This document shows positions 893 to 5,409 of a stretch of 42,469 bases of DNA, piece by piece. Position 1 is the stretch's first letter. Each line of letters starts with the position of its first letter. The notes beneath the pieces are model-generated. The model was not told where the DNA came from. It searched no databases and saw nothing but the letters and a program-made list of their open reading frames with translations. Origin of the DNA: Clostridiales bacterium (lineage in GTDB: Bacteria > Bacillota > Clostridia > Christensenellales > Aristaeellaceae); the NCBI GenBank assembly GCA_015056125.1, contig SVGW01000020.1, positions 1 to 42,469 of the forward strand. Direction: 5' to 3'. Both the position numbers and the translations under genes were made by a program.

Positions 893-921
893 TTGCATCT
901 TTTAAATATATGCGTTAAAAT
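893..921 (+). promoter_or_regulatory. Promoter of the ABC-F gene leader
   Basis: TTGCAT (893-898), a 17-base spacer and TAAAAT (916-921). The predicted start near 928 leaves a leader of about 205 bases before the ABC-F start codon, long enough for an attenuator. Confidence 0.65.
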
Positions 922-951
922 AGAAGCAGATCAATTGAAAGGGGTGGAAGG

Positions 952-963
952 ATGAGCAAGTAA
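952..963 (+). CDS. Three-codon leader peptide (MSK) upstream of the ABC-F gene
   Basis: ATG AGC AAG TAA sits about 25 bases after the predicted transcription start and is preceded by a purine-rich AAAGGGGTGGAAGG ribosome binding site. Very short upstream ORFs are known in the leaders of several antibiotic-induced ABC-F genes, where a drug-stalled ribosome on the uORF prevents termination. Translation here is inferred from the binding site and position only. Confidence 0.55.
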   Translation: MSK

Positions 964-1045
964 CTGTCTGCCGTCTTATGACAAAAGGGCAATGAAATCA
1001 AGGGGCTGAATGAGCCTTTCTTTTTCATGTGCTCTTGGCAGGCAG
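964..1045 (+). promoter_or_regulatory. Putative ribosome-mediated attenuator of the ABC-F gene
   Basis: Directly after the uORF stop, CTGTCTGCC (964-972) can pair with GGCAGGCAG (1037-1045) over nine positions with one G-U. Inside lies a terminator-like hairpin: ATGAAA (992-997) with TTTCAT (1023-1028), and AGGGGCT (1001-1007) with AGCCTTT (1013-1019), ending in a T-rich run. A further 9-bp hairpin (AAAGCGCAT with GTGTGCTTT) follows at about 1048-1074. A ribosome stalled on the uORF would cover the 964-972 arm. Which structures exclude one another cannot be settled by eye. Confidence 0.55.
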
Positions 1046-1133
1046 AGAAAGCGCATCCTTTTTTGCGTGTGCTTTGCTGCACCCTGAAATATACGATGCG
1101 CCTTATGCCTGCGGATATTTTTCGGAGGTACTT

Positions 1134-4947: not shown

Positions 4948-5409
4948 ATGTACACCATGATTCCCTTCCGTTCTCACCGCACCCTGAATCAGAATCGTCC
5001 CTCTTCCCTTTTTGACGATCGCTTTTTCCGCTCTTTCTTTGACATGAATGATTGGATGGGCAGCGCAGGCTTCCGGGTAGATATCCATGAAGAAAAGGAT
5101 CATTATCTGATGGAGGCGGAGCTTCCCGGCGTGCCCCAGGAACAGATTTCCATCACCGCCGATCAGGATACTCTCACCATTTCCGCGGATATGCGCAGCG
5201 AGCGAAACGATGAAAAAGCCTACTACAGCGAGCGCCGCATGGGTCATGTGTCCCGCTCCTTCAGCCTGGAGGGCATCGACGAAAACGCCATTACGGCAGA
5301 TTACAAAAATGGCATTCTATATGTGAACATGCCCAAGAAACAGCCTTGCCGGGATTGCAGCCAGCGCCGCATCCCCATTGGCTCCGGCAGCGAAGAAACC
5401 CAGGCATAA
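4948..5409 (+). CDS. hsp20: Small heat shock protein, Hsp20/alpha-crystallin family
   Basis: ATP-independent cytosolic holdase chaperone of 153 residues. The N-terminal arm contains FDDRFFRSFFDMNDW (about residues 22-36). The alpha-crystallin domain begins at FRVDIHEEKDHYLMEAELPGV (about 42-62) and ends with the conserved GILYVNMPKK strand (about 120-129). A short C-terminal tail follows. The ATG at 4948 is preceded by AAAGGAGG; the longer reading would start inside the promoter. Single-gene unit with its own promoter and terminator. The overlapping CtsR boxes indicate heat and proteotoxic-stress control. Confidence 0.95.
   Translation: MYTMIPFRSHRTLNQNRPSSLFDDRFFRSFFDMNDWMGSAGFRVDIHEEKDHYLMEAELPGVPQEQISITADQDTLTISADMRSERNDEKAYYSERRMGHVSRSFSLEGIDENAITADYKNGILYVNMPKKQPCRDCSQRRIPIGSGSEETQA

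Follow-up and report, generated by a model that had tools for sequence, protein, structure and literature searches.

The attenuators of cplR and vmlR are the closest known systems to the leader described here. In C. difficile, a tiny upstream open reading frame (uORF) encoding MRI (clostridial consensus MR[I/M]) lies before the PLSA-type ABC-F gene cplR, and in the account of PMC10201436 transcription and translation attenuation are combined, with the uORF held in a hairpin and the Shine-Dalgarno sequence of the gene hidden in the off state; our leader is predicted to resemble it in each of these respects. As that account has it, the uORF hairpin and the terminator of cplR are separate, induction forms an antiterminator, and the terminator covers the Shine-Dalgarno sequence of the gene with transcripts ending at the cplR start codon, whereas the predicted terminator strand of our leader is the ribosome-binding site and start codon of the uORF itself. 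The vmlR leader of B. subtilis (uORF MIN), as far as it is described in PMC9226507, is similar to what is predicted here in its initiation stalling on the uORF, its pause hairpin with a TTNTTT motif, its intrinsic terminator and its Shine-Dalgarno-sequestering stem that opens on induction; a variant with an MRK uORF is still functional there, if less well. It differs in using an anti-antiterminator, an antiterminator and a separate terminator (SL-3), with the uORF Shine-Dalgarno sequence single-stranded (PMC9226507), whilst the helix termed P0 below would dispense with a separate antiterminator. In the msrD leader (uORF MYLIFM), the stalled ribosome itself obstructs the terminator and a TTNTTT pause site is present, as would be the case here, but according to the text available in PMC10314930 induction is by macrolides, stalling occurs at the stop codon, the terminator lies between uORF and gene, and a translational layer does not form part of the description. 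The translation attenuator of ermC offers the logic of pairings 1:2 and 3:4 against 2:3 that frees a Shine-Dalgarno sequence (PMC10219788 in part). Its erythromycin-stalling peptide is longer than the peptide considered here. The ermC attenuator is not known to have a terminator.

The window, by which we mean the whole stretch of 42,469 nucleotides analysed (SVGW01000020.1 of GCA_015056125.1), is a contig of a 2.86-Mb genome bin. The product of its ABC-F gene matches the NCBIfam Lsa model NF000167 over the full length with 674 bits, which is below the curated cut-off of 750, and passes the general ribosomal-protection ABC-F model NF000355 (442 against a cut-off of 380). Named records at 65-79% protein identity are Clostridia, Clostridiales or Christensenellaceae bins, whose sample hosts, going by record titles only, are roe deer, red deer, goat, sheep and rabbit (‘Lapin’). 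A first-pass annotation had placed a ribosome-mediated attenuator before this gene, in a leader of about 205 bases. The length is borne out (about 206 nt from around 928 to the ATG at 1134), and on the evidence of conserved uORF and stems the attenuator is well supported; the annotation had made its claim depend on conservation in relatives, where we found the uORF in 25 of 25 readable leaders and stems that covary. The fold of 928-1140 is better than 200 of 200 dinucleotide shuffles (z -4.6), and that of 928-1050 alone gives z -2.8, with 1 of 200 shuffles equally good. No Rfam family was found for positions 700-1300 (best E 0.68, far below the gathering score), and nine related loci gave 0 matches. 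The feature is real and is larger than first described, with a predicted mechanism that covariation draws well. Its elements (Table 1) and three competing pairings are established by sequence and conservation, and the leader is probably a two-layer ribosome-sensing attenuator, in which termination at P0 would be joined to exposure of the ABC-F Shine-Dalgarno sequence.

Table 1. Features of the leader and its gene, in coordinates of the window.
Feature	Position	Strand	Basis
Promoter, TTGCAT-17-TAAAAT	893..921 (hexamers 893-898, 916-921)	+	sequence and scan of genus leaders
uORF ribosome-binding site, AAGGGGTGGAAGG; doubles as P0 5' strand from 946	939..951	+	sequence; strongly conserved in 24 leaders
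P0 5' strand (spans the uORF ribosome-binding site and its first two codons; in the window 955 is an A-G mismatch)	946..957	+	fold, covariation
uORF ATG AGC AAG TAA (Met-Ser-Lys)	952..963	+	25/25 readable genus relatives
Segment 1, pairs with segment 2 (P1)	964..972	+	120/120 cells paired, 24 leaders
Inner hairpin, predicted pause hairpin	1001..1019	+	scanner, blocked fold, motif
TTNTTT, NusG-type pause motif	1018..1023	+	20/24 leaders against 6.7 expected in shuffles
Segment 2, partner of segment 1 or segment 3	1037..1045	+	anchored counts, covariation
P0 3' strand GCGCATCC and run of six T, predicted intrinsic terminator	1051..1064	+	conservation, covariation
Segment 3, TGCCTGC, complement of 1038-1044	1106..1112	+	anchored counts, covariation
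Anti-Shine-Dalgarno strand, CCTGCGGA	1108..1115	+	148/168 cells paired; covariation
Segment 4, TTCGGAGG, contains ABC-F Shine-Dalgarno sequence	1121..1128	+	fold, anchored counts, covariation
Lsa-like ABC-F ribosomal-protection gene, 486 aa	1134..2594	+	profile matches

Comparisons were made at several depths. Searching 28 genomes of the same genus yielded the ABC-F gene in 26 and a readable leader in 25, the latter including L008, with a leader about 190 nt longer, and L090, from a genome whose gene contig is cut. Counts over 24 leaders exclude L008, together with L024 and L027, which are without leaders. The set of 43 includes L090, the leader of the genome of L024, and omits L106, whose leader is identical to that of L105; in the reassignment tests, the 19 leaders outside the 24 are 18 from other genera plus L090. 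A set of 59 joins the 24, found first by protein, to 35 that were found by a uORF-containing model or located by ATGCGC. Run on the MAFFT alignment A3, RNAalifold gave a poor consensus (-3 kcal/mol, 12 pairs, P0 absent) because the inner part is too divergent; the pairing counts were made on anchored columns with a hand-made structure. In L008, in the region about 402 to 50 nt ahead of the gene, extra sequence lies between the P0 T-run and segment 3, with both flanks recognisable.

In the window itself, the promoter proposed earlier matches only 8 of 12 consensus bases and is absent from the list of a general scanner. When the 75 nt upstream of the uORF were scanned in the 24 genus leaders with spacings of 16-18 allowed, the best site had a TTG-initial hexamer in all 24 and a spacing of 17 in 23; these sites sit 28-32 nt upstream of the uORF start, and 17 of the 24 score at least 9/12 (1.7 expected in shuffles). 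The uORF is present as annotated, preceded by AAAGGGGTGGAAGG. That it is conserved was confirmed, since every one of the 25 readable same-genus leaders has a three- or four-codon uORF after a G-rich ribosome-binding site; that its peptide MSK is conserved was not, relatives having mostly MRK. Peptides in the genus are MRK, MRN, MRI, MRNA, MRKA, MRNN, MYNA and MRNE, next to MSK in the window. Over the 59 leaders the uORF has three codons in 54 and four in five, with MRK in 41, MRN in seven, MRI in two, and MSK, MRNA, MRKA, MRNN, MYNA, MRNE, MRR, MRQ and MRG once each. The RNA surrounding the start codon is near-invariant in the genus leaders though the peptide varies, and the letters of the uORF are better explained by RNA pairing than by the peptide they encode: they would be kept because the terminator strand is the uORF ribosome-binding site.

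This pairing, P0, was overlooked in the first-pass annotation and was revealed by comparison with relatives. All 24 genus leaders compared offer a GCGCATCTTTTTT-like strand as a possible partner for the uORF ribosome-binding site and start codon, and all have a run of at least five T downstream of segment 2. The longest T-run adjoins the P0 strand in 20 of them; in L011 a six-T run adjoins it and a longer one lies further downstream. L004, L005 and L020 have their T-run further on, after another strand, one able to pair with GGGGTG in the uORF ribosome-binding site. On this evidence P0 with its T-run looks like an intrinsic terminator built on the landing site of the uORF ribosome. The end of the run is 70 nt upstream of the ABC-F gene, and the loop of the predicted terminator, at about 95 nt, is long for an intrinsic terminator.

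The covariation of P0 was assessed in several ways. Cells of P0 and P1 are paired at 96.4%, against at most 50.4% when the strands are slid, and nine of them are double changes, a number reached by 0 of 500 shuffles, with eight of the nine at one pair. The sole leader with TAC as codon 2 (L013, MYNA) carries the matching change in its far strand, and its own P0 duplex has an energy of -20.5, against a mean of -13.2 with the far strands of other species. With windows set without regard to pairing, own pairing in the 43 leaders surpasses all of 5000 reassignments, and within the genus own pairing beats 4993-4996 of 5000, figures that are not true probabilities since the leaders are related; the covariation holds in the 43 leaders and also in 22 representatives. 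In the family leaders L095 and L107, AAAGGGG is replaced by AAACGGAG and the far strand CTTCGTTTTTTT matches. Family leaders with the ribosome-binding sites GGTGTGG, GGGGCGGG, CGGAGTT and GGGATGA likewise have far strands altered to match, their folds being illustrations, selected as the T-run with most pairs. Shuffle tests leader by leader are milder, with a median z of -2.2 over 24 leaders, and over 59 leaders a median z of -1.7 with 39 in their own 5% tail. The energy of the own P0 is better than the cross-species mean in only 15 of the 24 genus leaders, and in the T-run window test P0 of the window is weak (-13.3), with a mismatch that results from AGC where relatives have CGC. Among the 24 genus leaders the window alone has AGC (Ser) as codon 2 (955-957), L013 having TAC and the others CGC; this may reflect genuine decay or a mistake in the assembly of the bin.

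Between the uORF and the gene, four segments can form mutually exclusive structures. The pairing of 964-972 with 1037-1045 given in the first-pass annotation exists, with one G-U, and as P1 it is conserved in relatives: all 120 anchored cells over the 24 leaders are paired, against 23-69 when slid. Segment 1 begins directly after the uORF stop codon, and, counted from the A of the start codon, its CTG core begins after 16-18 nt in 21 of the 24 leaders and after 13 nt in L021-L023. In the vmlR toeprint reported in PMC9226507, the footprint of a ribosome at a start codon extends to about +16, so that the start of segment 1 would be covered. A second, predicted translational layer, unreported before, sets 1038-1044:1106-1112 (pairing 2:3) against 1108-1115:1121-1128 (3:Shine-Dalgarno), with 164 of 192 and 148 of 168 cells paired, respectively, in the 24 leaders. 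Of 2000 whole-row permutations in these leaders, two were equally good for 1:2, 97 for 2:3 and 22 for 3:Shine-Dalgarno. Over the 43 leaders, again with windows set without regard to pairing, both second-layer pairings beat 5000 of 5000 reassignments. Within the 24, 2:3 is weak (122 of 5000 reassignments as good, and 277 of 2000 equally good in a separate reassignment test) and 3:Shine-Dalgarno strong (0 of 5000), whilst in the 19 other leaders the values are 0 of 5000 for 2:3 and 59 of 5000 for 3:Shine-Dalgarno. Double changes in 3:4 are at chance level in the genus (589 of 2000). Mutually exclusive RNA structures with covariation are present, 2:3 being weak in the genus alone. In a folding model with the uORF start blocked, the predicted accessibility of the Shine-Dalgarno sequence in the 24 genus leaders was 0.43, up from 0.27 (p=0.003), with an increase in 18 and no rise in six. 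Over 42 leaders it rose from 0.26 to 0.35 (0.29 with control blocks; p=0.03 against control), and in the 18 leaders outside the genus from 0.24 to 0.25, slightly up in 14 (p=0.09).

From these pairings, we infer termination, pausing, a drug and induction by it, arranged as follows. With no drug, a ribosome would read the three-codon uORF and depart whilst RNA polymerase waits at the inner hairpin and TTNTTT, and segments 1 and 2 would pair as P1. The emerging 1051-1064 would then pair with the uORF ribosome-binding site and start codon to form P0, and transcription would stop near 1064; in transcripts that escape, segment 2 would be held in P1, hence the ABC-F Shine-Dalgarno sequence would be covered by segment 3. 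A drug, expected from the Lsa-like product to be a pleuromutilin, lincosamide or streptogramin A, would freeze the ribosome at or just past the start codon, where it would occupy about 937-968 and so lie over the 5' strand of P0 and the beginning of segment 1. With P0 and P1 blocked, polymerase would continue, and the free segment 2 would take segment 3 and expose the Shine-Dalgarno sequence. With the landing site of the uORF ribosome predicted to be the terminator strand, a drug-jammed ribosome would turn the resistance gene on.

Other readings of the same elements were weighed against this one. The first-pass annotation had taken the hairpin within the long stem, which is present at 1001-1019 and followed by CTTTTTC, as the terminator, controlled by the enclosing stem 964-972:1037-1045. 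A scanner does flag it as terminator-like (one of five such sites in the stretch, 3.2 expected), but it shares no bases with the alternative pairings and is still there when the window leader is folded with a blocked uORF start. On both counts, switching by a stalled ribosome is hardly to be expected. The tract that follows it is TTTGTTTT-like and fits TTNTTT. Of the 24 leaders, 20 have this motif in the stretch from segment 1 to segment 2 and four lack it; in 17 of the 20 it lies 15-19 nt upstream of segment 2. In the accounts of PMC9226507 and PMC10314930, NusG-dependent pausing in the vmlR and msrD leaders occurs at TTNTTT; accordingly, the inner hairpin is more likely a pause hairpin than a terminator, and its role as the switched terminator is improbable. 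Less far-fetched, though still unlikely, is translation attenuation alone in the manner of ermC, with P0 just hiding the uORF ribosome-binding site, an incidental T-run and Shine-Dalgarno exposure as the only output. The pairings 1:2, 2:3 and 3:4 do follow that logic and covary, and predicted accessibility goes up in the genus; outside the genus it is nearly unchanged, however, and an incidental T-run sits poorly with its presence after segment 2 in every genus leader, with L004, L005 and L020, where it moves together with its pairing strand, and with the matched replacements in L095 and L107.

It is also conceivable that P0 as drawn is one state of several and that the acting structure is a local hairpin (GCGC...GCGT) around the T-run or P0 in a different register. 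GCGT is often found downstream of the T-run, a local hairpin sharing the GCGC strand and the T-run scores as terminator-like in L002, L010 and L017, and the duplex search prefers a different register in L002 and L010. Against this stand the covariation of P0 in both the 43 leaders and the 22 representatives and the several family leaders (e.g. L092, L094, L100 and L104) without GCGT after the T-run, which leave such a reading little room. That the leader makes no response to drugs, being constitutive or sensing something besides stalled ribosomes, is the most remote of these readings, given a conserved uORF and ribosome-binding site directly under the switch strands and the position of the element before ABC-F genes in 44 of the 45 model-positive family genomes.

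A covariance model trained on the 24 genus leaders was used to assess the range of the element; the resulting counts are lower bounds because the model was trained on one genus and strict filters were applied in the large searches. On its own genome it found the window copy only, the next match (E 0.046, 57 nt) not being credible. In the family, 45 of 200 genomes matched at E 0.01; the genus accounts for 11 of them and ten further genera for 34. All 34 were inspected, and 33 matches (nine genera) precede ABC-F genes, of which 11 are Lsa-like and 22 belong to a second class about 23-26% identical to the window protein; three of the latter, scanned as partial proteins, gave 259-319 bits with NF000355, under the cut-off of 380. 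The other match, L123, was spurious, one of the 45. A search of the order matched 11 of 396 genomes, in which the matches outside the family in L110 and L111 are real and L112 is spurious. A search of the class matched four of 391 genomes including its own, where L115 is spurious and L113 and L114 are, by inspection, Lsa leaders with a terminator near the gene. These two Lsa-like leaders have the uORFs MKL and MK and a terminator-like hairpin close to the gene.

In the passages covered of the open-licence PMC literature (PMC10201436, PMC9226507, PMC12421871, PMC10314930, PMC11550727, PMC10219788, PMC11109978 and PMC6310831), no description was found of the element or of a terminator to which a uORF ribosome-binding site supplies one strand. 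The chances are about even that the leader belongs to an undescribed class of riboregulator, present in one family and its order, in which the uORF landing site is the 5' strand of the terminator and sensing and switching are one helix with no antiterminator, which drives two ABC-F classes, and which arose from separate-terminator leaders by a swap of output with the sensor kept. The proposed attenuator predicts that uncultured bacteria of rumen and gut have resistance that is silent until a drug induces it and that gene catalogues alone would not reveal. It also offers a compact design rule, in which the terminator strand is the ribosome-binding site of the sensor uORF.

By inspection, distant Lsa-type leaders (Paenibacillus, Monoglobus, Niameybacter, Christensenella, plasmid lsa(E) and others) share the sensor half, which consists of a short uORF, a TTTTCTTGC-like segment 1 about 9-18 nt from the uORF start and a GCAAGAAAG-like segment 2. 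They differ from our leader in a separate terminator-like hairpin nearer the gene, seen in 23 of 30 by scan and in L052, L059 and L074 by eye, and its 3' strand often repeats segment 1. The last 130 nt of the window leader gave no terminator-like hairpin by scan, and the layout of separate terminator and antiterminator known from cplR and vmlR was not found there; among rows L001-L024, three of 24 gave a local terminator-like hairpin, at the P0 T-run (L024 offering only 16 nt of leader). In a protein tree, made by a quick method with long branches and a midpoint root, the genus forms one group with a support of 100, and its neighbours, joined by forks of 79-85, carry separate terminators, from which we infer that the genus swapped the output and kept the sensor. 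L030, of the same family and 45% identical, has an MRK uORF plus a separate terminator. The series of leaders from the separate-terminator to the P0 type offers a way to study how an output is swapped with its sensor kept. Plasmid lsa(E) of Enterococcus faecium (L073) has the uORF MYNFSC, segment 2 and the terminator pattern of chromosomal Lsa-like leaders; 158 nt, which include a small open frame, separate the end of its terminator from the gene, against 20-65 nt in most others. In the leaders of two Lsa-like genes of Paenibacillus (L043 and L045), ATG-TAG and ATG-TAA stand at the place of the uORF with segment 1 at the usual distance; these are possibly one-codon start-stop uORFs, an upstream TTG start being the alternative.
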